A program made the translations under genes and the position numbers. The notes under the pieces were generated by a model, which ran no database searches, was not told the DNA's origin, and saw only the letters and a list, made by a program, of their open reading frames with translations. Positions 677-22,910 of a stretch of 33,217 nucleotides of DNA are shown in pieces. Positions within the stretch are counted from its first letter, which is position 1. Every line of letters begins with the position of its first letter. Source of the stretch: Chloroflexota bacterium (GTDB lineage Bacteria > Chloroflexota > Dehalococcoidia > UBA6926); NCBI GenBank assembly GCA_026713485.1, contig JAPOOK010000067.1, positions 1 to 33,217 on the forward strand, given 5' to 3'.

Positions 677-3220
677 CCTGCGGGATTCTTGAGGCGTGGT
701 CATTACGGGCCGCAAGTACTCCGGTTCAATGCCCCATTGGTCTATCTTGTCCTGCTTCAAATAGAAGAAATCGTTGGCGCCCGTGGTTATGCCGCGGCGG
801 ATGTGGGCAACGTCTCCCAACCGAACAAGTTTGTCCGCTTTCTTGTCCAGGATGTGATGGTAAATGTCAGGGGCTCGGAGGTACTTGCCGCCCCACTTGT
901 CTCCCACGTATTTCGTCCCCGAAATGCCGGGCTCCCTGCCTGCGGTCAGGAGCGTCTCCTGCGTGCGCATCAATTCGCGTCGGAGGCTCATATCGCCAAG
1001 CGCCTTATCGAATTCATCCCGCAGCGAGATGAACCGCGTCACCGCGCCTTTTTCCTGTGTGCCCTTTCTGATGACGGAGATGATGGTGTTGATGTCCGCA
1101 GTTGAGAATTGCCGTTCCACTGCGCTTTCATAGATGGCTTGCAAGTGCGCGTTGGTCAGCAGGTATTCCTGTAGCTTTGCGCCGTATCCGACGTCCAGCC
1201 AGCTGTTGGAGCACACGAAGACCTGAGTTCCTCCGGGAGCCAGCAACTGCAGGGCGCGCGCATAGAAATAGCAATAGAGATCTGAGCGCGCGACGGCGGC
1301 ATCGGCATAGAGGCTGGTCAGCTCCGTCTTGGTGGGGCCGATATTCTCTTGGCGCACGTACGGCGGGTTTGCTATCGCCACGTCAAAGCCGCCGGCGGGA
1401 GTAAACAATTCCGCGAATTCCACCCTCCAGTCAACGACTCCCTCATGTGCGAGTTCACCAACCTGCACCTCGATGGCACGCGTCATGCGGTTGATCTCGT
1501 CCTTCAGGTCGGTTTTCCGTGTGCCATCGGACTCGCGCATATACACGGCCTTTGTCTCGGCCAGCTTCGTGACGGCTTCCAAATCGATACCCAACACGGC
1601 CTGGGCGTTGATGTCGCTCGGGTCCGGCCCAAGCAGGCTGTCGCCGCGGACGATCTTGAAGTCGAGGTTGGGCAAGGGAGGTGGTGTATCGCCGTCGAAA
1701 TCGATCGCCAGGGAGAGCCAGAGCCGCAGCATGGCGATGTTGACGGCGAATTCATTGATGTCTACGCCGTATAGGTTGCGCTGGATGATGTGGAGTTTGA
1801 TCTTGTAGAGTTCCCCGGGTTCAGACCTGATCCTAAAGAGGGCATCCCGTAGTTCGACAAGTTCCTGCATCATGCCGAGGAGGAACGCGCCGGAGCCACA
1901 GGCCGGATCCACCACCGTAATCTCGTCCAGTTCCGCGCCCACACGTGGGGCTGCGGGACCCCCAATATATGACGCATCGTGCGTGTCAATGAAGCTTGCG
2001 ATGTTCTCCGCACTCACACCGGTTTCCTTGCCCTCAAGGTAGCCTTTCAGCGCCTCGCGGCACATGAAGGCGACGACGGGGCGGGGGGTGTAGTAGGCCC
2101 CGGAATCGTGCCGCTCATTGACCAGTTCCTCGAACACCTTGCCGAGCATCTCCGGGTCGACGGCCACCTCGATATCGTACGGAGTGGACTCCATGACGGT
2201 GAAGTTGAATTTTTCGAAGAGTTCCGTGAGGGCGCTTTCGATTATGCTGTCCGGCACATGGATGCCATCGCGATTGTCGAGATCGCTTTCCTCAAACAGG
2301 CCGCCGTTTAGGAACGGGACCGAGCCGATGGCGTGGGATGCGCCTCCGGTCACGTCTCGTGAGTCCGGGTTGTTGAGGCCGGTAGAGAAGAGGACGCGCA
2401 GTCGATCGCGGTAGAAGTTGGGGTCGTTGCCGCTGGGCGTAGGGGCGGCATTCTTGCTGTAGTCAGTCCACAAGGCCCTGAGGTAATCCTTGTCATCGTT
2501 AATGGAGAGCCATCCCTTGCGAGAGAGGAAGTGGACGAACATGAGGCGGTTGAACAGCGTCTGCGTGAAGAGCCGCTTCGCGCCCTTCTCCTTGTCGCTA
2601 TCGCCAAAGCCGGTGATTGCCTCCTCCGCCCGTTTGAATACCCTCTGATATTCATCGAAGAACTCATCGGTGAACGGCTCGATGGCGAAAGCTTTGGCGA
2701 GGATAGGGGGCAGGAAACCGGGCGGACCGTCCTTCACATCTTCGTAGTCCGCATAGATGTTGGCGATCTGCTGGACGATTGTGCGACGCGGCACGCCGTC
2801 CGTCACCACCATGCGGCGCAGGACAAGGCGCGAGCTGCTGAAATCCGGCAGGATGATGTGTAGCTGGGTTGCTGACATGTTGGAGATGATGAGAAGAATA
2901 TCCTCGCCAAGCTCAGCCTCAATTCGCTTGGCGGCCACCTCAACCTCCGCCTTGCGGACTCGGTCGGTATCGACGGTGTTCAGGTCGATATAGAGGACGT
3001 GGAAGCCATCAAGCTGCGCGATGCGCTCTGCCGTGGCAGGCAGACTGACATTCGAGGGAGTGGCGGGGAGGCTGACGGTCCTATTGAAGACTGGTTCAAA
3101 GTCGAGAACCTCGGCGAATAGTTTGCGGACCTCGTTTGCGCGATTCTCAGGTGTGGAGTCAAAGACGCGCTTGAAGGCAGCCTCTACTTCGCGTGCATTG
3201 TTGGGGTCTTTGATTGGCAT
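521..3220 (-). CDS. Eco57I-like adenine DNA methyltransferase, truncated by insertion
   Basis: The gene starts at an ATG at 3220 and stays in one frame for about 900 residues. Residues near 438 carry the SAM-binding motif DPACGSGAF and residues near 617 the amino-methyltransferase motif NPPY. Together with the long N-terminal region this matches Eco57I-type restriction-modification methylases, which make N6-methyladenine and are sometimes fused to a nuclease (type IIG). I do not recognise a nuclease motif in the N-terminus. Homology-like sequence ends at RPRWW near residue 897, where the recombinase element begins, so the target-recognition part is missing or displaced to the far side of the insertion. 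By chance the frame has no stop all the way to the left edge of the window, antisense to the recombinase. The protein is probably inactive or altered in specificity while the insertion is present. Confidence 0.82.
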
Positions 3221-3942: not shown

Positions 3943-4401
3943 CTAAGCGCGCTCCTCCCGCCGCACCAGCAGTGCCGAGCACCCCCGCTGTACAACGTGA
4001 TGCACGTAAGTATGGCCGCTGCCGTCGTAACCGGTGCGGTAGGCGAATTCGACGTTCGCGCCATGCGGCATGCGGCTGCCGATGCGGGCCGTCTTGCCGT
4101 CATTCTCGCGCACGATCATCCCAGTGCGCTCGCCCTTGCGCCAACCGAGCACCTTCACCTCGGCGGGCATCACGCGCAGCTCGGCTTTCGACGGCTGGAA
4201 CAGCACGTCGTGCAACTTCCTGAGTACCGTCGGCGACGGGCTCCTCTTGCCGGACATGATGCTCGCCAGGTGGCCCGACGTGATCCCCGCCTGCTTCGCG
4301 ACCCTGTTCTGGCTGATGTCGTGCGCGTTCATTCGGTCCCACAACGCCTGGATATTGACGTCGGCGCGCTCTGCCGGCGTGGGCGGCTCATCTGTTGGCA
4401 T
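3943..4401 (-). CDS. XRE-family transcriptional regulator
   Basis: A 152-residue protein. The ATG at 4401 (MPTDEPP) is chosen because the frame upstream of it is low-complexity and does not resemble the family; no strong Shine-Dalgarno is visible. Residues of roughly 20-70 form a Cro/C1-type helix-turn-helix, with ISQNRVAKQAGI then SGHLASIMSGKRSPS as the recognition helix region. The C-terminal 75 residues form a second small domain rich in charged and aromatic residues (KVLGWRKGERTG, GYDGSGHTYVHHV), which I do not recognise. The gene lies downstream of the SRAP gene on the same strand but is separated by 340 bases, so it may have its own promoter. It could control the SOS cassette or the element; this is not shown by the sequence. 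Confidence 0.75.
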   Translation of the reverse strand: MPTDEPPTPAERADVNIQALWDRMNAHDISQNRVAKQAGITSGHLASIMSGKRSPSPTVLRKLHDVLFQPSKAELRVMPAEVKVLGWRKGERTGMIVRENDGKTARIGSRMPHGANVEFAYRTGYDGSGHTYVHHVVQRGCSALLVRREERA

Positions 4402-4740: not shown

Positions 4741-5409
4741 TTAGACTGCCCTGATGATTACGTCCGGCGTGTCGTTGGCTTGGGAGTTGACGAGCGTCGA
4801 GACGGGGTAGGTTTCCATCATGTCCGGCGGATAGGGGGTGAGGAAGCTGCTGAGCGCGGTAGAATCCTCTATCGAGTGGTCGAGCCAAGCTGCTTCGTGT
4901 TCCGGCGGCAGGATGACGGGCATTCGATCATGGATTGGGCGCATGATGTCGTTCGGCGTGGTGGTGACGATTGTGCAGGAGTTGATCATCTCCCTGTCGG
5001 GGTTTTTCCAAGTTTCCCACAGGCCCGCGAAGGCGAAAGGTTCTCCCGTCGTCATCAGGATGCGCATGGGTTGTCTGGCCTTGCCGCTGCCGGTCCATTC
5101 ATAGAAGCCGTCCGCGAGGATGAGGCAGCGGCGGCGGCGCAAGGCCGTGCGAAACATAGGTCTGTCCGCCAGGGTTTCAGCCCGCGCGTTGATGGCACGG
5201 TTGCCGATGGACATGTCTTTCGCCCACGAGGGTATCAGCCCCCACCGCATGTGCTCTGCTACGTTGTGCCCGTCCTCCCAACGCACCGTCAGGACGTTCT
5301 GCGTCGGCGCAATGTTGAAGCGGGGCGCATATTCATGGACAGGATTCTCGAAGTCAAACCGCAGCTGCAGGGCTGTAAGGTCGCTGATCAGGCTGTATCG
5401 TCCACACAT
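4741..5409 (-). CDS. yedK: SRAP-domain abasic-site protein (YedK/HMCES family)
   Basis: The start is set at MCGRYS (5409), because the family uses Cys2, exposed after methionine removal, as its catalytic nucleophile. An upstream in-frame ATG would bury it. Key residues are all present: Cys2, Asn74 in INARAET, Glu104 in GFYEW and His160 in IHDRMP, at almost the same numbers as in E. coli YedK. At 222 residues it is full length. SRAP proteins form a thiazolidine crosslink with abasic sites in single-stranded DNA and shield them. The gene follows dnaE2 by 60 bases on the same strand and so likely belongs to the SOS operon starting at imuB. This matches the known genomic association of SRAP genes with SOS mutagenesis genes. 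Confidence 0.93.
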   Translation of the reverse strand: MCGRYSLISDLTALQLRFDFENPVHEYAPRFNIAPTQNVLTVRWEDGHNVAEHMRWGLIPSWAKDMSIGNRAINARAETLADRPMFRTALRRRRCLILADGFYEWTGSGKARQPMRILMTTGEPFAFAGLWETWKNPDREMINSCTIVTTTPNDIMRPIHDRMPVILPPEHEAAWLDHSIEDSTALSSFLTPYPPDMMETYPVSTLVNSQANDTPDVIIRAV

Positions 5410-5469
5410 TTTTTGAGCGGGCCACCATGGCATTTTTTCCGGCTTCTCGTTGAATTAGTCTAGCGCGGC

Positions 5470-8400
5470 TCAGTGCCAATCGTGGGCGTTCGGCATGGGG
5501 ACATCGGTGTTGATGGCACGGATCTCAGACGCGATGATGTTTGTCGTTCCGTCCCAACGAGATACGATGCCACGCGCCATGATGACGCGGTTGCGGAGGG
5601 CGCGCCGGGATCGCGCGAACACGTCCTTCCAGAGAATGAGTTGCACGTCGTCGCACTCGTCCTCAATGGTGACGAAGACGGTGCCGTCCCGCCCGCGCGG
5701 GTGTTGCCGGGCAATCGGCCAACCGGCAACGAGCACTTCCTGGTCCTCAGGCATGTTGTACACGTCTGAGGTTCGCAGGACATGGTCATTCAACGTGGGG
5801 CGCACGAATTCCATGACGTGGCCGCGTGGGTAGATGCCCATGACGCGATACTCGCCAACCATCTTCTCGTATTCCAAGAAATCCTTGAGTTGCGGGGTGG
5901 TGTGGTCAGTGGTTGTGGCGAGAGTGCGCTGGCCGCTCCTGAGCGGGCGGTTGGCAAGACCAACTTCCCACAAGGCCTGTCTGCGGTTGGACGAGACATC
6001 ATCGAACGCGCCCGCCATGACGAGCGACGCGGCAGCCTGCGGCGTGATGCCCGTTCTGCTCACAAGGTCGGCGGGGCTGCCGTACCGGCCTCGCGCCTCT
6101 CGTTCTTCCACAATGGCACGCGCCGCTGCCTCGCCAACATCCTTAATGAGGCCAAGGCCCAGCCGCACTGCCCCATCCTCCGGCACGCACAGCGCCCGGC
6201 TGCGGTTCACGCAGGGGTTGAGGAACGGGACACCGAAACGCCGCGCATCTTGCTTGAGGGTCTCCATCGGGTAAAAACCCATCGGCTGGTTGTTGATGAG
6301 GGTCACAAAGAACTCCAGCGGGTGGTAGCGCTTGAGCCACGCGGCCTGGTAGGCGGTGATGGCGAATGCGTGGCTGTGGCTCTCCGGAAACATGTAGTGG
6401 CCGTTGACCTTGCCGAAGATTTTTTCTGCGATATCATCCGGCACGCCGTTGCGACGCGCTCCCTCAAGGAATCGCTGCCAGTGCATCTCAATCAGGGCGG
6501 CGTTGTTGGGACGACCAAAGGCCCGGCGTATCTCATCCGCCTCCGCCGTCGTGACGCCGGCAACGTCCGCCAGCAACTGCACCACCTGCTCCTGCCAGAC
6601 GATGATGCCGTAACCGCGCTCCAACGCCCGCTTCTCCAGCGGGTGATCGTAGCCCCACGCTACCCCGTACCGGTAGCGCTCCACGAATTGGCTGACAGAA
6701 CTGCCCTGCACCCCCACGCCGGGTCGGATGAGTGCGACCTGGTAGGCAAGGTCAAGAAGATTACGCGAGCGGAGACGCTGCGCCATCTTGAGCTGGGCCG
6801 GTGATTGCAGCAGGAAGACACCCTTGGCACGGCCCTCGTTGATCATGTCGTAGACGTTGTTGTCATCCGGCTCCACTCGGCTCAGGTCGGGGCGGCTGCC
6901 CGTCCGCTGCTCAATGAGGTCGAGCGACTGCTCCAGCTGGTCCAGCACCGGCAGGGAAAGGAGATCAATCTTGGCGACGTTGGCATCGGCGATGGTGTCC
7001 TTGTTCCAGTCGATGATGTAGCGCCCCTCGATTGCACCCTCCCGGATGGGCGTCATCTCCGAGATGGGCGAGCTGCTGAGGATCATGCCGCCGACGTGCT
7101 GGCCGAGGCTGCGGGGGGCGTCCATGAGCTGCGGGGCGAGTTCAATCAGTTCCCGCCAGCCCTGCGACTCAACACGATCCTTGTAGGCGGGCAGTCGCAG
7201 CATCTCCTCTTTGAGGTCATCGGCGTGGTGGGAGTGGAGCTGCTTGGAGAGGAGGGTGAGATCCTCTTTGGGCAGGCCGAGTGCCTTGCCAATGTCCTGG
7301 ATGATGCCCTTGACGGAGTAGGTGCTGATCGCGCCGGTGAGCGCGGCGTAGTCCGGGCCATACCGCCGGTGGACGCGAGTGATGAGCTCATCGCGCAGGC
7401 CGCGCGGAAAATCGAGATCAATGTCCGGCAACATGGACATGTCCTCGGAGATGAAACGCTCCAGCGTCAGATCCCACTTGATGGGATCGATGTGGCTGAT
7501 GCCGATGAGGTAACCGACCAACAGCGCGACGGACGAACCACGTCCCCTGCCCGGCGGCCTCTCCTCCAACGGGATCTCCGGCGGTGTCAGTCCGCGCTCT
7601 TCCATGATCTGCTGGGCCAGCAGCACGATGTCCCGATACAGCAGCAGGAAACCGGCGATGCCATGCCGCTTGATAAGGGCAAACTCTTCATCGAGTCGAT
7701 CCTGCACGCGCTGCGAGATGCCGCCGTAGCGTCGCATTGCCGCCTCGAAACAGAGGCGTTGCAGGTAGCTGTCCGTGGTGTAGCCCGCCGGCACGTCCGG
7801 CTCCGGTAGTTCGTAGTTGATGCTCTCGGCAAGGTTGAAGTCGCACTGCTCGGCGATGCGGCGCGTTACGTCGATGATCCCCGGGTACTCCCTCTCAAAG
7901 AGCCGCGCCATCGCGTCGTGGGGCTTCAGATGGAAGTGGTGGTTTGGGCGGATGTGCGGGAGTGCCTGGTCGATGGTGGTGTTGTGCTTGGCGGCGACGA
8001 GCGCGTGCTGGAGGCGGTACCGCTCCGGCGCGTGGTAGTGGACGTCATTCGTGGGAACGAGGCAGACGCCCGCATCTCTGGCGACACGGGCCAGCTCGCG
8101 GTTACGCGCCGTGTCGCCGCGGATGAGGTTCTGTTGCAGTTCTGCGAAGACGGAGTCCCGGCCGAACCAGTTCATGTAGCCTTGCAGGAGTTTTTGAGCA
8201 TCGTCATGACGGCCGGTCAGGGCGAGTTGGGACAGTTGGCCGTCGCGTCCACCGGCGATGAGCACAACACCCTCGGCGTGGTCCGGCAGATGGACAGGAT
8301 CAAGACGCGGCTCACGGCGATCAACAGCGTTGGCGAGCGTGAAGAGACGGGAGATGTTGGCGTAGCCCTGCTTGCTCTTGGCCAGCAGCGTGATGCGGGA

Positions 8401-8619
8401 GCCGTCCAGCATGGTCAACTCGCCGCCGGCAATCGGCTTGATATCGAGACTCTTGGCCAGTCGGGCAAATTCCAGCGCGCCGCAGAGATTCGTGTCAGTC
8501 AGTGCCAGCGCATCGTAGCCGTACTCTTTCGCTTGCGTCAGCAACTCGTGGACGTGCGATGCTCCCTCCCCAAAGGAGTAGAAACTCTTGGCGTGCAACT
8601 CGACGTATGAGGCTGTCAT
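5470..8619 (-). CDS. dnaE2: Error-prone DNA polymerase III alpha subunit DnaE2 (ImuC)
   Basis: A 1049-residue C-family polymerase of the usual DnaE2 length. The N-terminal PHP domain begins YVELHAKSFYSFGEGAS and includes ALALTDTN. The palm holds the two catalytic aspartates in PDIDLDF near residue 398 and a third in AKIDLLSL near residue 550. A helix-hairpin-helix region and an OB-fold domain follow, with VLVAGWPIARQHP and FVTIEDECDDVQLILW near residues 945-990. There is none of the extended C-terminus of replicative DnaE1. DnaE2 performs translesion synthesis with ImuB and the beta clamp. The gene follows imuB by 15 bases and precedes the SRAP gene by 60, in what looks like one transcript under an SOS promoter. 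No imuA is seen. Confidence 0.95.
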   Translation of the reverse strand: MTASYVELHAKSFYSFGEGASHVHELLTQAKEYGYDALALTDTNLCGALEFARLAKSLDIKPIAGGELTMLDGSRITLLAKSKQGYANISRLFTLANAVDRREPRLDPVHLPDHAEGVVLIAGGRDGQLSQLALTGRHDDAQKLLQGYMNWFGRDSVFAELQQNLIRGDTARNRELARVARDAGVCLVPTNDVHYHAPERYRLQHALVAAKHNTTIDQALPHIRPNHHFHLKPHDAMARLFEREYPGIIDVTRRIAEQCDFNLAESINYELPEPDVPAGYTTDSYLQRLCFEAAMRRYGGISQRVQDRLDEEFALIKRHGIAGFLLLYRDIVLLAQQIMEERGLTPPEIPLEERPPGRGRGSSVALLVGYLIGISHIDPIKWDLTLERFISEDMSMLPDIDLDFPRGLRDELITRVHRRYGPDYAALTGAISTYSVKGIIQDIGKALGLPKEDLTLLSKQLHSHHADDLKEEMLRLPAYKDRVESQGWRELIELAPQLMDAPRSLGQHVGGMILSSSPISEMTPIREGAIEGRYIIDWNKDTIADANVAKIDLLSLPVLDQLEQSLDLIEQRTGSRPDLSRVEPDDNNVYDMINEGRAKGVFLLQSPAQLKMAQRLRSRNLLDLAYQVALIRPGVGVQGSSVSQFVERYRYGVAWGYDHPLEKRALERGYGIIVWQEQVVQLLADVAGVTTAEADEIRRAFGRPNNAALIEMHWQRFLEGARRNGVPDDIAEKIFGKVNGHYMFPESHSHAFAITAYQAAWLKRYHPLEFFVTLINNQPMGFYPMETLKQDARRFGVPFLNPCVNRSRALCVPEDGAVRLGLGLIKDVGEAAARAIVEEREARGRYGSPADLVSRTGITPQAAASLVMAGAFDDVSSNRRQALWEVGLANRPLRSGQRTLATTTDHTTPQLKDFLEYEKMVGEYRVMGIYPRGHVMEFVRPTLNDHVLRTSDVYNMPEDQEVLVAGWPIARQHPRGRDGTVFVTIEDECDDVQLILWKDVFARSRRALRNRVIMARGIVSRWDGTTNIIASEIRAINTDVPMPNAHDWH

Positions 8620-8634
8620 GAGGTGCTGCGCGAA

Positions 8635-10080
8635 TTACGGAACATGTTGATACCAGCAATCGTCACGCCGGTCTCGGAAGAGGACCAGTTCGCGGCCGTC
8701 CTGTCGGCTCACGCGGTAGTAGGTCCTGGTGAGGGGCTGCGGCAGCCACCAGAGGTCGAAGCTCCAGCGGTCTTCGATGCGGTCGATCCTCTGCCACCGC
8801 TCGCCAAGCCGCACGGCGACCGGCTGTCGGTTCGGGCCCTCTCGCACGACCAGTGCGGTGGGCACTGAGAGGGCCGTCGCATCATCACCGGTGGAGGAAT
8901 CGATGGGGACGCGGAGGGCGCGCATCTCAGGCGCTGGGTGCCACGGCGCGACATCCAGGATCTGGTAGAGGGCGTTGCTCCCCCTGAGGTGAGCACGGAG
9001 TCCCCTGTACATTTCCAACAGCCGCTCATTTCGGTCGCGGCGGTTCTCACGCAGCAGGCCCATCTGCATGCCCTCGTCGCCGCTCAGATCAGTCAGCGTC
9101 ACGCTGATCTCCTCGACAGGCGCAAGAGGGTGATCCTGCTCCATCTGCGGCGTGATAATCTCCGACACGCGCCCCGATGTGCCGGCGGGCTGCTTGAATC
9201 TCAGGATTCTCTCCCATGCGGGGACGTTGAGCAGAAGGCAATGGAGCATGACGGCCCCGGCGTAGCGGCCGCGCATTCGCGGCGTGGCATAGGCACGCTT
9301 GAGGAGGGTGTCCAACGTGACGATGACGAGTTGCAGAGAGCTTGAGGCGAATGGTAGCGACATGCGCTCCGAGACGGATTCCTGATACGCGAGTGGGATG
9401 AGAGGACTGTCGTCGATGCCGTGCGAGAACCGCCACACCGCGCCGCCCTCAGCGCCGAACTGATCGACAAGGGCGGCCTCGGACATCGCCGCCACATCGC
9501 CCAACGTGCGAAGGCCGAAACGACGGAGGCCTATGCGGGTTTCGTCCTTTGTCGGCAGCAACTCGACGGATCGCGGGGCTAGGAACTCCGCCGCATCTAG
9601 TGGGACAGCGGTGACGCCGAGAGGGGGGGTACCAGCGGCCGCAGCAAATGCGGGGAACTTACCCTCGCCGATGCCGATTCGCGCCTGCAGGTAACCCGGG
9701 ATCGCCTCATGCAGCGCGGCGACCAGCGCGTCCTCGCCGCCGTACATCTCGTCCAGCCCGGCCACGCGCACGTAGGCCGTTCCGAGACCTGCGTCCTCAA
9801 CCTGGTCGCTGACCTCTTGCAGCGCAGTGAGTGTCTGCCGGAACACACTGCGATACGTTGCCTCGTCCGCCTCAAGGATCAGCGTATCCGCCTGCTGCGA
9901 GAGGGCCTGTTCCGGCGTCATGCCGATACTGATGCGGGGGGCGGCGGGCGAGTGGTCGACGACAATGGGTTTCTTCTGTCCGCGCGCGACAATGACGGCG
10001 GGTTTGCCGGACAGGTCCGGCCGCCGCCGCATCTCGATCTTTGCCCTCAGATGCGTGATGAGCACGCAGGCGATACGCAT
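8635..10080 (-). CDS. imuB: ImuB, inactive Y-family polymerase-like mutasome subunit
   Basis: A 481-residue protein. The ATG at 10080 (MRIACVL) is preferred over the GTG four codons upstream because a GGGGGG Shine-Dalgarno lies five bases before it. The Y-family fold is recognisable from RIACVLITHLRAKIE through ARIGIGEGKFPA, but the first catalytic aspartate motif is replaced by CVLITH. The usual SxDE stretch reads as the ImuB-type VRVAGLDEMYGGEDAL. It is therefore a non-catalytic ImuB, the hub linking DnaE2 to the beta clamp. The last 80 or so residues (VAVRLGERWQRIDRIEDRW to YYRVSRQDG) match the small C-terminal domain often found in ImuB proteins (DUF6504-like). It is the first gene of the SOS operon. 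Confidence 0.9.
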   Translation of the reverse strand: MRIACVLITHLRAKIEMRRRPDLSGKPAVIVARGQKKPIVVDHSPAAPRISIGMTPEQALSQQADTLILEADEATYRSVFRQTLTALQEVSDQVEDAGLGTAYVRVAGLDEMYGGEDALVAALHEAIPGYLQARIGIGEGKFPAFAAAAGTPPLGVTAVPLDAAEFLAPRSVELLPTKDETRIGLRRFGLRTLGDVAAMSEAALVDQFGAEGGAVWRFSHGIDDSPLIPLAYQESVSERMSLPFASSSLQLVIVTLDTLLKRAYATPRMRGRYAGAVMLHCLLLNVPAWERILRFKQPAGTSGRVSEIITPQMEQDHPLAPVEEISVTLTDLSGDEGMQMGLLRENRRDRNERLLEMYRGLRAHLRGSNALYQILDVAPWHPAPEMRALRVPIDSSTGDDATALSVPTALVVREGPNRQPVAVRLGERWQRIDRIEDRWSFDLWWLPQPLTRTYYRVSRQDGRELVLFRDRRDDCWYQHVP

Positions 10081-10111
10081 CGTTCCCCCCACCGTTTACC
10101 TAGTAAGGGGC

Positions 10112-10141
10112 AGAATAAAAGAACGTTCGTTCTTGTGTCAA
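10112..10141 (-). promoter_or_regulatory. SOS (LexA-type) box inside the imuB promoter
   Basis: On the minus strand a consensus -35 TTGACA (10141-10136) is followed after 18 bases by TATTCT (10117-10112) as -10. The spacer contains the perfect dyad AAGAAC-N4-GTTCTT (10119-10134), which holds the GAAC-N4-GTTC core known for LexA of Gram-positive bacteria and Chloroflexota. A repressor bound here would block RNA polymerase directly. The expected transcript starts some 20-30 bases before the imuB ATG. Confidence 0.85.
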
Positions 10142-10674
10142 GGATGCTGATCCGCAGCTCGATTAGCCATGCGCCGTCCGCCGCCTCGCTATACCATCAA
10201 GGACCGCTTGCCCCCATTAACCGCTGGTTTCAACCCATCCGACATTAGACAGGTTCGCTATGCGGTCCCGGCGCGTGTATTCCCACCGCATTCTGCCTGC
10301 GTGAAACCTGTTGGCTGTTCGCAACAGAGCCATTGCGCGTCTGTCTTTACCTCTAATTACGTTTCAATTCGGATTCATACCGTAGGCCAAGGTTCCCCGC
10401 GGTATCGGTGAGCCAGCCAGCCGGTAGGGTCGTGCCGGTCGGCGGTTCCCCGGACGTGAGAAACCCGGCCATCAGGTTGTCAATCTCTAAGGATGACCTC
10501 TCTCGATCCGGCTTCCAGGGACGGTGTGCATGATTAGGCATGACGCGAGACGACGGGAGAAGGCGACGGGAGTTGAGATCAGATTGTTTGCTAACAACTG
10601 TCAAACAATTGTTGAAGTTTTGTGAGTGATTCCGACGGTTTGGGTCGAATTGGTGACATCGGTCCTTGTCCTGC
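10142..10674. other. Non-coding gap between the SOS operon and the HTH gene array
   Basis: About 530 bases between divergent transcription units. It is less GC-rich than its surroundings in the right part. It holds an imperfect dyad near 10600-10620 (TCAAACAATTGTTGA), a possible operator. No convincing gene, RNA or terminator was seen. A 143-codon minus-strand frame that crosses it has no protein-like composition. Confidence 0.4.
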
Positions 10675-10696
10675 AAAGCCTCGTGCGCTAGGCTTT
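10675..10696. promoter_or_regulatory. 7-bp perfect inverted repeat upstream of the HTH array
   Basis: AAAGCCT (10675-10681) and AGGCTTT (10690-10696) form a perfect dyad with an 8-base centre, 75 bases before the first small gene. Fifteen bases further on, TTGTTCT occurs twice (10711-10717 and 10721-10727), one helical turn apart. Such a pair of elements before an array of small DNA-binding proteins suggests an operator and promoter region. Confidence 0.4.
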
Positions 10697-10770
10697 CTGA
10701 ATCAGTACGTTTGTTCTGTTTTGTTCTAGAGACTAGCGCCCCAGGAACGGAGCCGGAAGGAAGCCACTGT

Positions 10771-10935
10771 ATGCCAAGAAACAAGCGCTACGGCGAGTAC
10801 GAACTCACACCGGAACAGCAGCAGATCGTCGACGACGGACTACGCATACTCGCTCGGATGATTGCCAGACGGGTCATGCAAGAGCAGGCGCACGATGCCG
10901 CTCACGCCGCAAGTGGGGAGGAAGGGCGCCAGTGA
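10771..10935 (+). CDS. Small hypothetical protein, first gene of the HTH array
   Basis: A 54-residue protein beginning MPRNKRYGEYELTPEQQQ, with a GGAAGGAAG Shine-Dalgarno 8 bases before the ATG. An upstream in-frame start would add 35 residues of unlikely sequence. The middle (IVDDGLRILARMIARRVMQEQ) is a predicted amphipathic helix, and the C-terminus is rich in Ala and His. No known domain is recognised. Its last bases overlap the GTG of the next gene (GTGA), indicating translational coupling and a shared role with the helix-turn-helix proteins that follow. Confidence 0.6.
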   Translation: MPRNKRYGEYELTPEQQQIVDDGLRILARMIARRVMQEQAHDAAHAASGEEGRQ

Positions 10936-11177
10936 CAGCCAAGGCGAGGCGTCCACGCGTCAGGATACGAACCCGACGGGTCTATGAGTTGCTGGAACAG
11001 CTCAATCTGTCCCAGAACCAACTGGCCGAACTCGTAGGCGTTTCCTCTGGCTACATGTCGATGCTTCTCACCGGAAGACGGTCGCCATCGGGTGCCGCGA
11101 GGAGGCGTCTTCAAGAGGCATTGAGTGTCACCGAATTCGGCGAGATCTTTGAGTTGGAGGGCGCGAATGACGCATAG
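10932..11177 (+). CDS. Small XRE-like helix-turn-helix protein
   Basis: An 81-residue protein starting at a GTG that overlaps the previous stop by 4 bases. After a basic N-terminus (KARRPRVRIRTRR), residues of roughly 18-68 make a Cro/C1-type helix-turn-helix: LNLSQNQLAELVGVSSGYMSMLLTG, followed by RRSPSGAARRRLQEAL. There is no further domain, so it is a bare DNA-binding module. It is the second of five overlapping genes. Its likely role is repressor or antirepressor of the element; the target is not visible. Confidence 0.8.
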   Translation: MTAKARRPRVRIRTRRVYELLEQLNLSQNQLAELVGVSSGYMSMLLTGRRSPSGAARRRLQEALSVTEFGEIFELEGANDA

Positions 11178-11463
11178 AACGTATCTGCCCAAGAGGTTGA
11201 TGCTGTTCGGGGCGGACCTGCCGGACGACTTTCCCGACCGGATCGAACTCCTGCGCCAGAAGACCGGCCTCTCGCGAGAGGCGTTCGCGCACTGCCTCAA
11301 CGTCGACCCCAGGCAGTTGCGCAAGTGGATGAAAGGGTCCAGACCGGGCCCGGACGGTCTCTTTGCCCTCTTCACGATGGCCGAGCGCCTGCCCGACGGT
11401 TTGTCGCTTCTCTTGCACGGGAATCTGAAGAGCAAGTCGGTTCAGGGGAGGTTTCGACCATGA
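11167..11463 (+). CDS. Small helix-turn-helix protein (array member 2)
   Basis: A 98-residue protein. The ATG at 11167 overlaps the previous gene by 11 bases. The body follows the pattern F..RIELLRQKTGLSREAFAHCL, then VDPRQLRKWMKG, then GLFALFTMAERLPDGLSLLL. The recognition-helix segment has a conserved W followed by K/R and G. The next two genes repeat the same layout at the same spacing, so the three appear to be tandem paralogs. The fold is most like XRE/Cro helix-turn-helix, but the sequence is divergent. Function unknown; DNA binding is inferred. Confidence 0.72.
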   Translation: MTHRTYLPKRLMLFGADLPDDFPDRIELLRQKTGLSREAFAHCLNVDPRQLRKWMKGSRPGPDGLFALFTMAERLPDGLSLLLHGNLKSKSVQGRFRP

Positions 11464-11747
11464 GAGATGAGCCGTCGACGGCTCAGGATCAGCCCGCCTT
11501 TCCCGCACGCTTGCGGGCGTTCAGGAAGTTGACCGGGATGACCAATGCAGAGATCGCCAAGGCCATAGAAGCGCCGGTGGGCGTTGTCAACGGCTGGCAG
11601 CGGGGAGCCTTGCCGAGGGGTCTCGCCCTGCTTCGATTCATGGCGCTTGCGGCCAAGATTCCCGATGGCATGGACACCATGTTCCCGCTGCTGGCCGCCG
11701 ATATCCGCAAGTTGGACGCAAACCGGCGCGATCGGTATGGCTCGTAA
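11460..11747 (+). CDS. Small helix-turn-helix protein (array member 3)
   Basis: A 95-residue protein starting at an ATG that overlaps the previous stop (ATGA). The internal layout matches its neighbours: PAFPARLRAFRKLTGMTNAE, then IAKAIEAPVGVVNGWQRGALPRG, then LLRFMALAAKIPDGMDTMF. The W-x-R-G turn after the putative recognition helix and the IPDG near the C-terminus are shared positions. It looks like a duplicated and diverged copy of the adjacent genes. The unusual feature is that each copy stays a separate short protein rather than a fused repeat. Confidence 0.72.
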   Translation: MRDEPSTAQDQPAFPARLRAFRKLTGMTNAEIAKAIEAPVGVVNGWQRGALPRGLALLRFMALAAKIPDGMDTMFPLLAADIRKLDANRRDRYGS

Positions 11748-12012
11748 GAACCCAGTCCTTCTCACCTCCCGCCCAGCCTTCCCGTCTGACTTCCCTACCC
11801 GTCTTGAACGGTTCAAAGAGGCTTCGGGTCTCACTTGGCGTGTTCTCGCGCGGGCGGTCTACGTGAGCCCTCGCCGAGTCCACTATTGGCGGCACGGCAC
11901 CCTGCCCGACGCGGTCCATTTCTATCAATTACTCACACTGGCGGAACAACTCGGCCTGCGAGATGTGCTGGTGGGGGACGACGATCCCGAAGAACGGGAT
12001 GATTCGGAGTAG
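11737..12012 (+). CDS. Small helix-turn-helix protein (array member 4)
   Basis: A 91-residue protein whose ATG overlaps the previous gene by 11 bases. It repeats the family pattern: PAFPSDFPTRLERFKEASGL, then LARAVYVSPRRVHYWRHGTLPD, then FYQLLTLAEQLGLRDVL. The C-terminus is strongly acidic (DDDPEERDDSE). It is the last gene of the array. Its stop is one base from the stop of the convergent replication-relaxation gene, with no terminator between them, so transcripts from the two sides should overlap. Confidence 0.72.
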   Translation: MARKNPVLLTSRPAFPSDFPTRLERFKEASGLTWRVLARAVYVSPRRVHYWRHGTLPDAVHFYQLLTLAEQLGLRDVLVGDDDPEERDDSE

Positions 12013-12013
12013 G

Positions 12014-13648
12014 TTACCCTCTGTGATCCTTAGGCTCGTTTCGCCTTACGGGTGACGCTATCGCCGGATGCGGCCCCGGGTTCCCGTCCCTCACCACCAG
12101 CGGCAAAGACACGCCGGTTCTCGTCATCTCCTGCCCGGCAATTCGGGCGAAGCGGGAAATGGCGATCTCGTCTTCAAGAACGACCAGGACCTTGGGCGTG
12201 ACTCCGTGGTCGTCGAGCGGGCGCTTCGTGGAATAGTAGCGGAGGTACGGGGCGATGCGCTCGCGCATCGTGGAGGGACGCACGGCACGCCGTTCCCATT
12301 CGAGGAAGAATGCCTGTGTTTCGTCGTGGCACCGGAGCATAAAGAAGGCGTCGGGATGAACCGACCGCTGCCCTCCCTCGTACATGAAATACCGGGAAGC
12401 GCGATGTGGCGGATCAAGCTGAACAATCACCCAGCCCTGCTCACGGGCCGAAATCGCCATTGAGGCAAGATACGAGTGAACCGCGTCGGTGTGACCAACG
12501 TGTCGAAGCAACTGCCGGATTCGTCTTCCCGGCACCCTGTACCAAGTATGGCTCAGATCCTCTCCGGTCTCACTTATGCTCCAGCGTCGTTTCGTCGTAC
12601 CGACAGATGCTCGGTCTCTTCGGGACAGCAGCCCCAAACCACGATCGGTGAGCGCAAGACGAATCCCATTCACGTAAAACCGATTCACCAGCCCCCTTTC
12701 ACCCAGCCTACCGAGTATCTCGGACAACCACGTTGGATTCAGGTCTAGGAGGATGCGCAGATTCTCGATGCTGATGCATGGCCAATCGGCGATCATGTCC
12801 AGCACACTCTTATCCGATGGATGGAGATCGACGGGGAGCAGGTGGGCCGGGATGTTGTGCTTATCACCTCCCAATGTCAACTCTTCAGGCATCGTCACGC
12901 GGTTGAGGGGCGGCTCGGTTAGGACCCTGCCCTCCTTAGGGGTCTTTCTGACCGCAGACGCGACATCGAACCGTGCGTCCGTACCGGGCATGTTCCACAC
13001 GGGTTCGTCCGCGTCCTCGGACATGAACGTCCTCTCGATTGCAACGAACGCGGGAATATGTTGACGGGCCAAAAACCTGACGGCATACCGCGATCTGATC
13101 TCGTCCGGCACAAGCAGCATCAAAGAGCCCGGCATTGGGCCATCATGGAGACGCTCGATCCTCTTGGTGAAGGCCGTTCTGTCTGACATCGGCCCCCACC
13201 GCATGATCCCCATTACCCGACCGTCGAGCAATGTGACGGCGGCATCGAGAGCTCCCGCGCGGTAGATGCGCAGACGCATGGCCGATGACGCCAGATGGAT
13301 GACTTCGGCAATGCCATAGATGCTGGCCAATGCATCAAGGCGCCCAAGCAGTAGCCGGTGCCACTGTGACGACACCGGTCTAGTTCGCAGGAGCTCGTCC
13401 ACATCTACTTCCTGCAGGCGTGCCGTCTCCCGAATCCCATCTGCGGTCAGATAGAACCGTTGGGTGTGACGTTGCCCTTCGGTCGTGTGCGGCAGGGAGG
13501 CCACAAGGCCAGCGAGATCGAGTCGTTCGACGGCCTTGTAGACACCGGACACCGACGATGACACGAACGTCGCCAACTCCGCTCTGCTGAGGAAGGGCAT
13601 CTCGGAGAGAAGCCGCAGTATGTCCGAGACCACCATAGTTGTTCGCAT
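12014..13648 (-). CDS. Replication-relaxation family protein
   Basis: A 544-residue protein. The ATG at 13648 is chosen because AAGGGA lies 9 bases upstream and the longer frame has an implausible N-terminus. Residues 5-75 form a winged helix-turn-helix (LSRAELATFVSSSVSGVYKA, then a TAD.GI wing). A second winged helix lies near residues 290-355 (ISIENLRILLDLNPTWLSEIL). The C-terminal part has HPDAFFML followed by FFLEWERR, which resembles the nuclease-like core of the replication-relaxation family (Replic_Relax) found next to conjugation ATPases on plasmids of Gram-positive bacteria. It is the last gene of the T4SS operon and may process or control the DNA to be transferred. The family assignment is from memory of its layout and is not certain. 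Confidence 0.65.
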   Translation of the reverse strand: MRTTMVVSDILRLLSEMPFLSRAELATFVSSSVSGVYKAVERLDLAGLVASLPHTTEGQRHTQRFYLTADGIRETARLQEVDVDELLRTRPVSSQWHRLLLGRLDALASIYGIAEVIHLASSAMRLRIYRAGALDAAVTLLDGRVMGIMRWGPMSDRTAFTKRIERLHDGPMPGSLMLLVPDEIRSRYAVRFLARQHIPAFVAIERTFMSEDADEPVWNMPGTDARFDVASAVRKTPKEGRVLTEPPLNRVTMPEELTLGGDKHNIPAHLLPVDLHPSDKSVLDMIADWPCISIENLRILLDLNPTWLSEILGRLGERGLVNRFYVNGIRLALTDRGLGLLSRRDRASVGTTKRRWSISETGEDLSHTWYRVPGRRIRQLLRHVGHTDAVHSYLASMAISAREQGWVIVQLDPPHRASRYFMYEGGQRSVHPDAFFMLRCHDETQAFFLEWERRAVRPSTMRERIAPYLRYYSTKRPLDDHGVTPKVLVVLEDEIAISRFARIAGQEMTRTGVSLPLVVRDGNPGPHPAIASPVRRNEPKDHRG

Positions 13649-13755: not shown

Positions 13756-16233
13756 TTAGGTGATGTCGCTCTGCTCTTCGCTGTCCGCGTCGTCGACCGT
13801 CTTGCGGTACTGTTCAACCAGACGCTCAAGACTCGCGTCACGAGCGCCCAAGATGTCGTGTCCGGTGGTGTAGTCGACGGTTCCGGCACGGATTCTCTGA
13901 GCGAGGGCGCCATTCCCCGTCCCGGGCTTCCGCACTTCCATCGAGAACGTTGGCAGCCGTTCGGTGCCGACCGTCGCCCTGACGTAACACTGATGGACCG
14001 GCAGCGACGTGATGTCATCCTGCGTCACTCGGTCAGTACCGAGTTCTCCCACGAGCTGACGCGCATCCGAGGAGGCCACCTGGAAGACCGCGAGGCATCC
14101 GACGTTTGCCAGCAGGCTGTCCCGCATGGTGGGAGACAGGTCATCGAGTTTGGAGAGGCTCTGCGTGGCGAGCACGAAGCTCGCCCCAAACTTGCCCAGC
14201 TCAGACAGCATGGATTCGTAGTCCACGCCGGGCATCGATTGCATCTCGTCGACCACGACGAGCACGCCCCGGCGTTCGCTGGGGTGGAGCCCTCCCTGCT
14301 CACGAATAACCGCGTCGACAAGATTCAGCAGGGAGGAGCCGACCAAGGCGGACACGTCGCGCCCCGCTGCTCCCTGTGCCGTCGACACGAGGAGGATTCC
14401 GCCGTCGCGAATCGTGCGCCGGATATCGATCGTGGACCGCCGCTGCCCCAGAATCGCACGCGCCTTCTTGGATGTGGCGTAGTAGGACAGGCGCGTCTGA
14501 ACCGGAGCCAGCGCCTCGGACCGGTACTGCTTGTGCCAACTCGTGAAGTCGCGGGCCCACCATTCCAGTAGGTGGATATCGTCCACTCTCTTGAGCATCT
14601 TGGATCTGAAGGACCCGTTCTTCGGTGCGAGGAGCGCAAGACCGTCAAGGATTGTGTACTGCTTGTCCTCCGGCATCCTCTCGTTGGCCTCGTGGAGAGT
14701 CTTGACCACCTGCTCCAGGATCGACTGCATTCTGGGGCCCCACTGGTCCCAGAGTCCCTTCGCAATGCGTACGACCGAATCGGCCGTTCGGTCGCGGTCG
14801 GTGAAGATGCGGGAATCCAGAAGGTTGATTCCCGGGGCTCCGTTCGGATCGGCAAGATCGACGAGTCTGACCTGGTCCGCCAACGACTCCGGGACGTGTT
14901 CCAGCAGGGACGCAATAAGGTCGACATGGGGGTCGATGACCACGATCGCGTCGTCGTCCCTCCCGATCGCCTTCTCTCGCAGTTTGTGCGCCACGATGTG
15001 CTGCATGAGGGTCGACTTGCCCATACGCGTGCGTGCCACGTACAGGTGATGCCGGCGGAGCAGATCACCCGGAAACCGTATCTCGCCGCCGGAGTCCCCA
15101 CTGAAACTGCCGACGTGAGCGCCAAAGTCAAGCGCCCTGGCGGATGGCGTCAGCACCTTCGAGCCTGAGCGGTCGACCTGGGGCGCTTCATCCTTCGAGC
15201 CGAGGGGATGCCATAGGCTGGCCACCTCACGGACGCCGAGCACGTTGCGCTTGGCAAACATGCCTCCTCCGACTTTGAGGCCGAATTCCTCGGGCGCGAG
15301 CTTCAGCTTGCCGACATCGAACTTCGCCCCGACGGGGTTGTTGTAGTGGCCATACGCTGTGGCCGCCTGCGTGAGCAGCTCACTCGCTCGTCGCCGTCCA
15401 CCCTTTTTGGGGACGACAGCTATGAGTTGCACCTCCGCCTGGAACGCCGTCCGCGACACCTTCTCCAGGACAATCTGCGTGTTGGGTATGCGCGGCTTCT
15501 CTCGCTTGAGACGCGTCCACACGATTGCCGCTGTCAGCGCCCCGAGCACTGCCCCGCCGGCGAGGGCAATCGCCTTGAAGACATCGCCGTCCTGCCAGTA
15601 CTGCCATGTTCGCAGGCCAACGAATGCGCCGCCCGCCAGCAGCATGAGCCGGATGACCTCCCCGTGGTTGACCTGCCCTTCCTGCGGCGTGGGGCGGGGG
15701 ACGAAGCGTGGTTTCTCCGCCTCCACCTGATAGGCCTCCGACCAATCGGGACCCATCGACTTGAGAACGAGGCGAGCGACGACTCGCTCCTTTGGCCGCA
15801 CCGCCGACAGTGCTCCGATGAGGGCGAGCATGGGGTCGGAGCCCTCGTCGAGTAGATCGTCGTCCCTGAAGACCCGGAGAGGCACGTATTCCGGTCCTCT
15901 CACCGTGAGGGACGTCGTCCACGCCTCTTCGCCCTCATCGAGCGTCAACGGGTCATCCGCGTCATTGACGGCGCTCACCCGCGCTTGCGGATAGTGGACG
16001 CCCACCTGCCCGCGCACGGTCTGCGAATCGATGCAACGGACAAGGAGTCGCACCCCATCCCCGTTGCCCGCAATCTCCAGCGAGAAGGGCTCCGGGACGG
16101 CAATGGCTTGCAGCATGTTTTCGACACCGAGCATGGTGCGTTCCCCCGTGCGGGGCGGGGTTATGGACAATAGGACGGGATCGTTTGCCTTGTCCGATCC
16201 AAAGAGTCTCTTGAGTGGTGTTAGCGGATTCAT
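13756..16233 (-). CDS. VirD4/HerA-like conjugation coupling ATPase
   Basis: An 825-residue protein. The ATG at 16233 has a GGGAGG Shine-Dalgarno and overlaps the VirB4 stop by 4 bases. The order is a soluble N-terminal region, two membrane segments at about 193-236, then an ATPase domain. The Walker A near residue 404 reads ARTRMGKST, with Ala in place of the usual first Gly. Walker B near 662 is GVLVVVDEMQS, and a sensor-like VLATQSLSKLD follows. This is the TraD/VirD4-HerA class that delivers DNA-protein substrates to the T4SS channel. The neighbours VirB4 and Replic_Relax fit. A DNA-pumping role in conjugation is inferred from family and context. Confidence 0.85.
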   Translation of the reverse strand: MNPLTPLKRLFGSDKANDPVLLSITPPRTGERTMLGVENMLQAIAVPEPFSLEIAGNGDGVRLLVRCIDSQTVRGQVGVHYPQARVSAVNDADDPLTLDEGEEAWTTSLTVRGPEYVPLRVFRDDDLLDEGSDPMLALIGALSAVRPKERVVARLVLKSMGPDWSEAYQVEAEKPRFVPRPTPQEGQVNHGEVIRLMLLAGGAFVGLRTWQYWQDGDVFKAIALAGGAVLGALTAAIVWTRLKREKPRIPNTQIVLEKVSRTAFQAEVQLIAVVPKKGGRRRASELLTQAATAYGHYNNPVGAKFDVGKLKLAPEEFGLKVGGGMFAKRNVLGVREVASLWHPLGSKDEAPQVDRSGSKVLTPSARALDFGAHVGSFSGDSGGEIRFPGDLLRRHHLYVARTRMGKSTLMQHIVAHKLREKAIGRDDDAIVVIDPHVDLIASLLEHVPESLADQVRLVDLADPNGAPGINLLDSRIFTDRDRTADSVVRIAKGLWDQWGPRMQSILEQVVKTLHEANERMPEDKQYTILDGLALLAPKNGSFRSKMLKRVDDIHLLEWWARDFTSWHKQYRSEALAPVQTRLSYYATSKKARAILGQRRSTIDIRRTIRDGGILLVSTAQGAAGRDVSALVGSSLLNLVDAVIREQGGLHPSERRGVLVVVDEMQSMPGVDYESMLSELGKFGASFVLATQSLSKLDDLSPTMRDSLLANVGCLAVFQVASSDARQLVGELGTDRVTQDDITSLPVHQCYVRATVGTERLPTFSMEVRKPGTGNGALAQRIRAGTVDYTTGHDILGARDASLERLVEQYRKTVDDADSEEQSDIT

Positions 16234-18449
16234 ACACTGCCTCCCTTCTGTTGCTGAACGGCGATCCGGCTTCGGCCTGGCCGCCACTCGATAACGTCTG
16301 TCTCTTCCTCTGTAGCCTCAATACGGACGGGAAACCGGCCTCCCCGTGCCAGCAGAAGTCCGTCACCGCGAGGGCACGAGATCAGCCAATGCTGCAGGTC
16401 CTCGGGGAGGTCGAACGCGTCACCGACCGTGCGGATCGCCGCCGCGTCCTGCTGTAGCAGGAGCTTGAACGCTGCGTTCTGGAGCAACGCCCGACCGGAA
16501 TGGCCGGTGATGGCGCGGGACGTGTCCTCGGACAACAGATCCTGCACGTCCTGTGTGATGAACTGCAGACCAAGCCGGTGCTTGCGGGCCCGCTTGGCCA
16601 TGCTCACCATGAACGCCGCGCCCTCCGGGTGCTGCATGATCGACCACACTTCGTCCACGACCAGGAGGCGCGGCTTGGGATTCTGCGCCGCCGCCGTCCA
16701 CACGGTTTCCGTGCAGACCATCGCGGCGGCGGGGCGCATCTCTGGTTCCAACAAGCGCAGATCGAAGACCGTGACGGGAGCCTCATTGGTTAGGAGGTCG
16801 TCGCCCTCGTCCGTGAGGAGATGCCGGAGACTGCCCGTCGCGAACGGCCTGAGCAACTTGTCCAGAACGCCGTCGCCGTGCTCCTTCAGGTGTTCGTAGA
16901 AGTCCCCGAAACCCGTGCGTTCACGAGGCTCCATGTAGTAGGCAGCGAGGGCGTGATCGAGCGCCGCTCGCCTCTCCGCGCCCAGTGGCTCACCGATCAT
17001 GACCTCGATGAGTCGCCTCAGGCTGCCGATGCGGAGGAGCAGCTCCTCGCTGTCGGAGCGGTCGATGACAAAGGGGTTCATTCCCTGCCCCGGCACTCCG
17101 GGCGACAGGACGCGTCCACCCGCGGCGCGCGCCATATCCGCGTATTCACCCTCTGGATCGATTACATAGGCCGTCACCCCACGGCAGATCGCGCGTAGGA
17201 CGCCGAGCTTCGTGGCGAACGACTTGCCGCTGCCGGAACGGGCGAGGACGGCGGTATTCGCGTTGAGATGCGTACCGTCGAACGGGTCGTAGACGATTGG
17301 CGACGACGAGCGGAGGTCTAGACCATACAGGGTGCCGCTGCGGGTATCGAGGTCCGGCGGGGAGAACGGGAAGAGCCGCGCCAACGATGATGTGTCCAGA
17401 GTTCGCCAGGTTCCGATGGCATTGAGTCCGATTGGCAGTGCTGAGACCAACCCCTCGCGTTGCCGGTAGGAGAGAGTATCGAGCTTGCCCAGGGTGGAAG
17501 CGAAATGGGCCCGAACGCCCTGTGTCATCTCCTTGAGCTCGGCGGCGTCATGGGCGTGGAGCGTGATTGAGAGCGAGGAATGGAAGAGCCGCTCCCTTCC
17601 TCGCTGCACGTCGTCGCGGAGGCGGCGCACGTCCTCAAGCGCGATCTCGGCCTCAGGCGACATGGTCTTGCCGCGCCTGATCGACAGCGACTGCGCCGAC
17701 TCGAATCTCACCTTCTGCCATTCGAGCGTGCGGGACGCCTGGTCGGCGGGAATCGGGCCGAGATGGATTGACACGTCCATCCGCGTCCCGGACGCCATCA
17801 GCGCCTGCAAGAATCCCGGGATCAGCGCCCGCGGCCACTTGCCCAGGTGCAGCGACCTGGCAAGCGTGTCACCTAGGCGAATCTCCCTCTGCCGGATCTC
17901 GACCTCTAGGAACGCATCGTCGGCAATCTCTCTCGGCGAGCCCCCGGCCGCCGACGCGACGATCAGCATCCTCAGCTGGCGGCCCCTAATGGGATTGACG
18001 GCCAATCCGGCGCGGACCATCAGGCCGCGCAGGTCGTCGATGCGGTCGAATTCGCAGACGGCATAGAAACGCCGGTCGACCACGCCTTCCCGGTCCTCAA
18101 GGTCGGAGAGCAGCCCACGTAGGGAGTCTGCGGCGACCGTCGTCTGGGGCGGCAGGTTGTCGGGCTGCTCGTCCATTAATTGAGCTCGCAGGCGGCTCAA
18201 CTCCGGCGAGTGTTGCCGAATCAGCAACTGCACCGGAAAGTCCATCGCGTTGAGCGCGCCGGTGAAGGAGCCCAGTTTCGCCTCGTCCAACTCCAGCCCA
18301 AGCGCTTCGAGCACTCCGAGCTTCACGCCGTCGATGCGGACCGGCCCGTCATCGTCGACGTGGGAGAGCATGAAGAATCTTGCCAGCGGGCTGGCCTCGG
18401 ACTCGGGTGTCGAATCAGGCGTTTTCGGTCTTTTTAAGAAACTCTTCAA
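16230..18449 (-). CDS. virB4: VirB4/TraC-like T4SS ATPase
   Basis: A 739-residue protein. The start is set at TTG 18449 because AAGGAG lies exactly 7 bases before it. A GTG six codons upstream would place this ribosome-binding site inside the gene. The N-terminal half is the VirB4 domain. The C-terminal half carries Walker A ARSGSGKSF near residue 406 and Walker B LLVVDEVWSIM near 598, followed by QFITQDVQDLL. VirB4 energises pilin extraction and substrate passage at the inner face of the membrane. It overlaps the coupling ATPase downstream by 4 bases. Confidence 0.9.
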   Translation of the reverse strand: MKSFLKRPKTPDSTPESEASPLARFFMLSHVDDDGPVRIDGVKLGVLEALGLELDEAKLGSFTGALNAMDFPVQLLIRQHSPELSRLRAQLMDEQPDNLPPQTTVAADSLRGLLSDLEDREGVVDRRFYAVCEFDRIDDLRGLMVRAGLAVNPIRGRQLRMLIVASAAGGSPREIADDAFLEVEIRQREIRLGDTLARSLHLGKWPRALIPGFLQALMASGTRMDVSIHLGPIPADQASRTLEWQKVRFESAQSLSIRRGKTMSPEAEIALEDVRRLRDDVQRGRERLFHSSLSITLHAHDAAELKEMTQGVRAHFASTLGKLDTLSYRQREGLVSALPIGLNAIGTWRTLDTSSLARLFPFSPPDLDTRSGTLYGLDLRSSSPIVYDPFDGTHLNANTAVLARSGSGKSFATKLGVLRAICRGVTAYVIDPEGEYADMARAAGGRVLSPGVPGQGMNPFVIDRSDSEELLLRIGSLRRLIEVMIGEPLGAERRAALDHALAAYYMEPRERTGFGDFYEHLKEHGDGVLDKLLRPFATGSLRHLLTDEGDDLLTNEAPVTVFDLRLLEPEMRPAAAMVCTETVWTAAAQNPKPRLLVVDEVWSIMQHPEGAAFMVSMAKRARKHRLGLQFITQDVQDLLSEDTSRAITGHSGRALLQNAAFKLLLQQDAAAIRTVGDAFDLPEDLQHWLISCPRGDGLLLARGGRFPVRIEATEEETDVIEWRPGRSRIAVQQQKGGSV

Positions 18450-18470
18450 GTCGGTTCTCCTTAACACATG

Positions 18471-22511: not shown

Positions 22512-22910
22512 ATGTGCCTCCTCGCCACGAGTACTTGATGCATGAGACAAGTGTTCGTATTTCGACCGGTGGGGAACAGGACTCGTAGAGGGTGCTTTCC
22601 TCAGCACTCCTTTTGACGCCTGTCACCCAGGAGCGGCGTCGGGCAGCGTGGGGGGTGTACAGGGATTAGCCCTGTGAAAAGAGGGGATCGGACGGGGTGT
22701 TTAGCGCGTGTCGATGCGGTGGAGAGACGATTGAAGGCGGATTTCTGTAAGCACTTTGGATTCGGTCGCCAGTGGACGCACCTGAACAAAAGCCCCTATC
22801 TGTGGAGACATTTTTGTTGGGCGTGAATCGACGGGGTGGTACATCGGCGCTATCTGCATTCGACACTTTTGTGCCAGTGCCACCTCGTCAGGAAATGGAG
22901 GGCAGATTTG
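22512..22910. promoter_or_regulatory. Divergent intergenic region with a palindrome
   Basis: About 400 bases between the T4SS operon and the next plus-strand gene. It should contain both promoters, though I cannot place them with confidence. The perfect dyad ACAGGG-ATTAG-CCCTGT at 22659-22675 is a candidate operator, or a small hairpin. No gene was seen. Confidence 0.45.

Follow-up and report, generated by a model that had tools for sequence, protein, structure and literature searches.

Five very small, overlapping genes at positions 10,771-12,012 of a 33,217-nucleotide stretch of Chloroflexota DNA (hereafter the window) form an array that, on balance, we read as an early operon under LexA/SOS control that belongs to a family of serine-recombinase ICEs in this phylum; its ordered helix-turn-helix (HTH) proteins would be slot-specific regulators of excision and/or transfer. 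Comparison with related loci defines an unnamed, recurrent control module, composed of p1, p2 and an ordered set of two to four HTH proteins, for conjugative elements of largely uncultured, often sponge-associated Chloroflexota. Because its promoter carries a predicted SOS switch and the gene order of its HTH proteins is constant, the timing of the element's departure or spread is probably set by this unit.

The five genes encode proteins of 54, 81, 98, 95 and 91 amino acids, with successive overlaps of 4, 11, 4 and 11 bases; their reading frames lie exactly where a first, sequence-only reading of the window had placed them. The first, p1 (10,771-10,935, + strand), encodes a small conserved non-HTH protein with the pattern L-T-x-E-Q...G-L-R-x-L-A-R-x-I-A-R. 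It is followed by p2 (10,932-11,177, +), which starts at GTG and encodes an XRE (Cro-like) HTH protein, and then by p3 (11,167-11,463, +), p4 (11,460-11,747, +) and p5 (11,737-12,012, +), which are the first-slot, middle-slot and last-slot members, respectively, of one HTH family. A single base separates the end of p5 from the 3' end of a convergent gene at 12,014-13,648 (−). Because homologs of each of the five occur elsewhere with their order kept, p1 through p5 are real genes.

The proteins encoded downstream of p1 belong to the Cro/CI (XRE) HTH superfamily: p2 by its Pfam match, p4 and p5 by their structural models, and the family as a whole by its profile. The original proposal of four small HTH proteins is borne out, in that p2 is a typical XRE protein (HTH_3, E = 2.5e-8), p3 (HTH_3, E = 5.5e-4) and p5 have weak matches to Pfam HTH profiles, and p3 is also matched by the family profile. 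Pfam gives no match for p4. AlphaFold2 models built with alignments of relatives show the five-helix Cro/CI HTH fold, and not a non-HTH fold, both for p4 (pLDDT 86.8), which has an additional C-terminal helix, and for p5 (pLDDT 79.2). Foldseek searches of the PDB with these two models retrieve XRE proteins (ClgR, P22 c2, HipB and controller proteins) at a probability of ~1 (1.0 for p4); the E-values exceed 0.02, as a fold this small would lead one to expect. Searched against PDB sequences, the family profile finds XRE chains (best E = 2.7e-8), including HigA (4e-5) and C.AhdI (1e-4), with weak matches to CII (E = 0.005) and ICEBs1 ImmR (E = 0.007); the HigA and HipB antitoxins are also among its matches. 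Further, p4 as the sole phmmer query recovers p3 (E = 2.1e-4) and p5 (E = 2.3e-4) from the same genome, which indicates that the three proteins are paralogs, as had been suspected, and are related beyond their common layout.

None of the HTH proteins carries an effector domain, in agreement with the earlier description, and Pfam finds neither a DUF2285 domain (E ≤ 1) nor a match to PF18897, the Gp3-like RDF, among p1-p5. A toxin-antitoxin system was considered and set aside, as no toxin partner was found adjoining the array; likewise, PADLOC models for anti-phage defence give just weak HTH matches. A second p2-like XRE gene with a C-terminal extension lies elsewhere in the window (3,943-4,371, −; E = 4e-12 to the p2 profile).

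We found about 34 distinct arrays by combining a profile search of 400 genomes of the phylum, a scan of genome contigs, and near relatives of the window. In the 400-genome search most family members fall below ~1e-19 and the background lies above ~1e-12, with one degraded copy from family f78 in between; this score gap sets the family proper apart from a broad list of profile matches (219 of the 400 genomes) that are mostly generic XRE proteins. A scan of genome contigs with the single protein p4 gave no match. All but one of the hosts are Chloroflexota bins, from Dehalococcoidia and other classes, and many appear from their bin names to be sponge-derived. In the one exception, a bin labelled Bryobacterales (Acidobacteriota), the array (L086) is of almost the same type as those of f78, which reflects either cross-phylum transfer or a binning error. 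A phage or plasmid origin was rejected: viral contigs held no relatives, and plasmids gave merely weak generic HTH matches.

The family recurs as arrays on other elements, as the sequence-only reading had anticipated, and not as single genes with unrelated neighbors: 33 of the 34 arrays hold two to four family copies (L072 has one), and p1 and p2 homologs and relaxase, T4SS or recombinase genes are found nearby repeatedly. Four copies are present in five or six loci (L087, L088, L090, L091 and L092, with L089 cut after three). Single copies or fragments outside any array were seen at L062-L064, and extra family-like copies on the opposite strand face the array at L077 (10,719-10,892, −), L082 (2,204-2,386, −) and L083 (1,852-2,010, −). 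Of 32 loci scanned, 31 have a p1 homolog ahead of the array, and the one that does not (L076) starts ~100 bases ahead of the first copy; p2 homologs accompany every array group but the Crp-like one. The constant core is p1, usually p2, and the ordered array, with upstream partners that vary, and p1, which was overlooked at first, is a defining component of the unit. We found no description of such an HTH array among the open-access papers searched.

The position of a copy within the array is a heritable property. A tree built from 76 copies places all 30 proteins of the last slot, p5 included, in one clade (support 99/97), and the first-slot and middle-slot proteins likewise cluster far above chance, such that the three slot labels require 4 changes versus a shuffled mean of 34. 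Within this tree p3 is placed among the first-slot proteins on a long branch, and p4 sits on a separate, genus-specific middle branch (a clade of 3, support 100/100). Because the last slot is a single clade, the slots must be ancient and distinct; the tree does not support a recent date for the tandem duplication of p3-p5 that had first been proposed to account for their resemblance. The divergence of first-slot and last-slot proteins, as read from the tree, predates the spread of the elements, and a duplication so old and inherited slot by slot speaks for distinct roles over dosage. The third protein of the four-gene arrays ranges from neutral to acidic, with a net charge averaging −0.7, and its ability to bind DNA may have been lost.

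As originally described, the array is flanked by an SOS operon on one side and a conjugation operon on the other. On its upstream side, divergent from it, are an imuB/DinB-like polymerase gene (8,635-10,092, −; Pfam IMS, E = 5.5e-13) and, after this, a DnaE-like gene (5,470-8,619, −). On its other side the convergent gene at 12,014-13,648 encodes a PF13814 (Replic_Relax) protein (Pfam E = 7.2e-10), a putative MOBC-type relaxase, PF13814 being given as relaxase family MobC in PMC5357655. TraG/TrwB-like coupling ATPase (13,756-16,287, −) and TraC/VirB4-like ATPase (16,230-18,467, −) genes follow, both assigned by Pfam and syntenic in many array loci. The contig start cuts a serine recombinase gene, of which the C-terminal part remains (2-676, +; 61% identity over 178 aa to the L081 recombinase, which has Resolvase, Recombinase and Zn-ribbon domains). 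With TraG, TraC, a TrbL-like gene, PF13814 and this recombinase C-terminus, the window, from a metagenome-like assembly, has the gene content of a putative ICE.

Around 4,741-10,092 the window holds what appears to be an ICE-borne mutagenesis cassette under a perfect LexA box, made up of ImuB, identified by Pfam, and genes that we take from their sequences to be SRAP-like and DnaE-like. A long gene beside the recombinase (2-3,220, −) resembles, judged by eye, that of a type II/BREX-like DNA methyltransferase and may be defence cargo.

Most other arrays face the same convergent genes (PF13814 relaxase-like, TraG, TraC, TraB) or adjoin a serine recombinase; at L074, L078, L081 and L085 the tra genes lie beyond 10 kb, 30-80 kb off on the same contig. 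The upstream partner is imuB-dnaE in the window, L018 and L019 (imuB adjoins the array also at L080), a CRP-like HTH gene at L066-L073 and L075, where readable, and a serine recombinase at L074, L078, L080, L081 and L085. In 11 loci (L058-L060, L079 and L086-L092) an XRE gene and an ImmA/IrrE-like peptidase gene, an ImmR/ImmA-like pair, are divergent from p1-p2-array. Upstream of the tra operon we found a conserved ATCCCTGTACACCCCC (22,651-22,666, −), a candidate oriT/nic core or operator, whose CTGTACA core (ATTCCTGTACACGCCC-like) occurs once per ~12-kb tra-upstream piece in 10 of 10 such pieces (the window and L119-L127), at the matching intergenic place in most.

The array promoter carries a predicted host SOS (LexA) box, which had escaped the sequence-only reading. 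This promoter (10,666-10,694, +) has a −35 TTGTCC (10,666-10,671), a 17-nt spacer and a −10 TAGGCT (10,689-10,694), and is followed by the candidate operator GTACGTTTGTTC (10,705-10,716, +), which matches the host LexA box GAACNNNNGTTC at all but one position. Two dyads had been proposed as binding sites: that near 10,675 spans the p1 promoter, where the conserved operator is the one at 10,705-10,716, and that at 10,119 is a perfect LexA box (GAACGTTCGTTC, 10,121-10,132) inside the −35/−10 spacer of the imuB promoter (TTGACA-18-TATTCT). A GAAC-N4-GTTC box with at most 2 mismatches lies 39-42 nt after the −35 TTG in all 23 promoters of this kind, which share the TTG and the −10, in an alignment anchored on the box after the box had been seen and drawn from loci that include related, non-independent elements. 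The box is perfect in the array promoters of L072, L074, L078 and L081. In array upstream regions GAAC comes out first of all 256 palindromic half-sites: the box is perfect in 5 of 18, counting the divergent imuB box at L019, and present with at most one mismatch in 14 of 18, versus a same-GC mean of 2.3.

The same box marks SOS genes of the host. In the 1.9-Mb host genome GAACNNNNGTTC occurs at 9 sites, versus 66 for the reversed control, and among the nine are a site 67 bases ahead of the HTH match in lexA, another immediately upstream of recA and that in the imuB promoter of the window. The GTAC...GTTC variant found at the window array is also present in the host recA promoter (GTACAAGCGTTC) and in the lexA promoter of another genome (G025, GTACTGATGTTC). 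The lexA promoters of G000, G091, G077 and G059 have a perfect box, at the same promoter position as in the arrays where this could be read (the first three). The presence of this box, with a single mismatch, at the window's array promoter and its recurrence at host lexA and recA would place the array in the host LexA regulon. Among tra promoters of relatives, L125, L126 and L127 have perfect boxes, and L120, L122, L123 and L124 have GAACNNNNGTGC. Because GAACNNNNGTGC also stands at one lexA promoter (G069, L110), its recurrence suggests that it is a tolerated variant of the LexA box in the class.

We propose that LexA represses the array operon through the box that immediately follows the −10. 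Once damage to DNA removes LexA, p1, p2, the two to four slot-specific proteins of the Cro/CI type and imuB-dnaE would all be switched on, and the slot-specific proteins would then start or limit excision and transfer by acting elsewhere on the element, at other promoters or sites. What the sequences show is the operon, its conservation, slot orthology, the HTH fold, the promoter and box architecture, and the box at host lexA and recA; LexA binding, the target genes, the sign of regulation and mixed oligomers are inferred. DNA damage could in this way trigger element transfer directly through host LexA, a route that is open to testing. Counting against the model are the single mismatch in the window's array box, the tra promoters of the window and its sister L119, in which no LexA box is recognizable, and the arrays of f78 and L086, which are without a box. 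No repeats that p3-p5 might target turned up in a search for sequence shared by the array and tra promoters. In f78-type arrays (upstream regions of L058 and L086) a different palindrome (TTCTGCATAGCAGAA in L058) takes the place of the LexA box, next to ImmR/ImmA-like genes; an operator shift along with host LexA specificity found no support here, as the f78 lexA upstream regions do not have the f78 array palindrome.

The box could resemble a LexA site by mere likeness and be an autoregulatory operator of the array, bound by p2 or a slot protein, a reading for which degenerate boxes in several arrays (GAACNNNNTTTC, GAACNNNNGTAC) might be cited. Because the box is kept in the group that has no p2 (L066-L075), it is not a private operator of p2, and host lexA promoters share both the box and its spacing; we therefore regard autoregulation as a very improbable account of it. 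A separate question is whether the array proteins regulate transcription at all, since DNA-binding accessory proteins are common in relaxosomes and these might bind oriT to aid the adjacent PF13814 relaxase. The 1-base gap between the array and the relaxase gene in the window, their convergence in many relatives, and the conserved CTGTACA upstream of the tra operon, possibly oriT, are consistent with such a role. However, the array stays beside the serine recombinase at the four loci whose tra genes are 30-80 kb away, and its proteins have a Cro/CI and not a ribbon-helix-helix fold, which leaves the relaxosome role quite unlikely.

The array may also bear on excision more directly. The p1 profile also matches genomes that are complete in one contig and belong to a different family (f15) of the class; gene content suggests that they are Dehalococcoides/Dehalogenimonas-like. 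Their islands share with the array loci a related serine recombinase (46% identity to that of L081), an XRE protein and an ImmA-like peptidase (PF06114, E = 1e-5), divergent from a p2-p1 pair. By contrast, p2-p1 is followed there by a PF18897 Gp3-like RDF (E = 2e-52) and a DUF3854 primase, with no array copy at that site and no T4SS genes in the 9-kb stretches. The ssrA islands (PMC3146451; a module of DsiB, DsiA and others) offer a point of comparison at the level of the island. PF18897 is missing from 11 of 12 array-bearing genomes searched, with no match anywhere in G000, so that the array, which seems to sit at the place of the RDF behind p1/p2 (a correlation only), may replace the Gp3-like RDF.

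That the array proteins are themselves the RDF for the serine recombinase, or controllers of one, is nonetheless doubtful. The absence of PF18897 is compatible with an unrelated RDF, one genome (G108) has both the array and PF18897, though on different contigs, and some array loci have no recombinase within the stretch examined. We know of no HTH array that acts as an RDF. The strongest form of the idea, a multi-protein RDF (excisionase complex) for large serine recombinases that replaces the Gp3-like RDF and brings about damage-triggered excision via LexA, we hold to be somewhat less likely still. Since the same p1/p2 pair is followed by the array in some elements and by an RDF in others, the way in which these serine recombinases are signalled to excise becomes directly testable.

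Several known systems resemble the LexA-controlled operon that we favor. In the SXT/R391 ICE, host DNA damage is likewise tied to an operon of two small regulators, SetC/SetD, which are believed to form a heteromer that acts on genes for excision and transfer (PMC4344509). There, however, it is the element-encoded CI-like SetR whose inactivation involves RecA, and SetCD do not make up an XRE array, whereas the array promoter has the predicted host LexA box directly; we noticed no SetR-like protein in the window, and no autocleaving CI-like repressor next to the array there or in the family scans that we ran. The 11 array loci with an ImmR/ImmA-like pair recall the immunity region of ICEBs1, a module that is absent beside the window array, where imuB-dnaE stands instead. 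To our knowledge, ICEBs1 has no array of slot-specific XRE proteins. The array appears to be like SXT SetR/SetCD and ICE immunity regions in coupling damage to element activation and to be a member of neither. FseA/QseM of ICEMlSymR7A are small HTH paralogues, including activator/antiactivator pairs, that control transfer of an ICE (PMC10359603), but these have DUF2285, which is not matched in p2-p5, and the array consists of separate genes with a standard Cro/CI fold and an SOS-type promoter. Lambda CII/Cro and XRE regulators share the fold and size, unlike the array's organization into two to four separate slot-conserved proteins. At one locus (L026) a LexA-type HTH match (9,733-9,909, −; E = 2e-8) lies directly 3' of the array, and this may be an element-borne LexA-like gene in place of host control.
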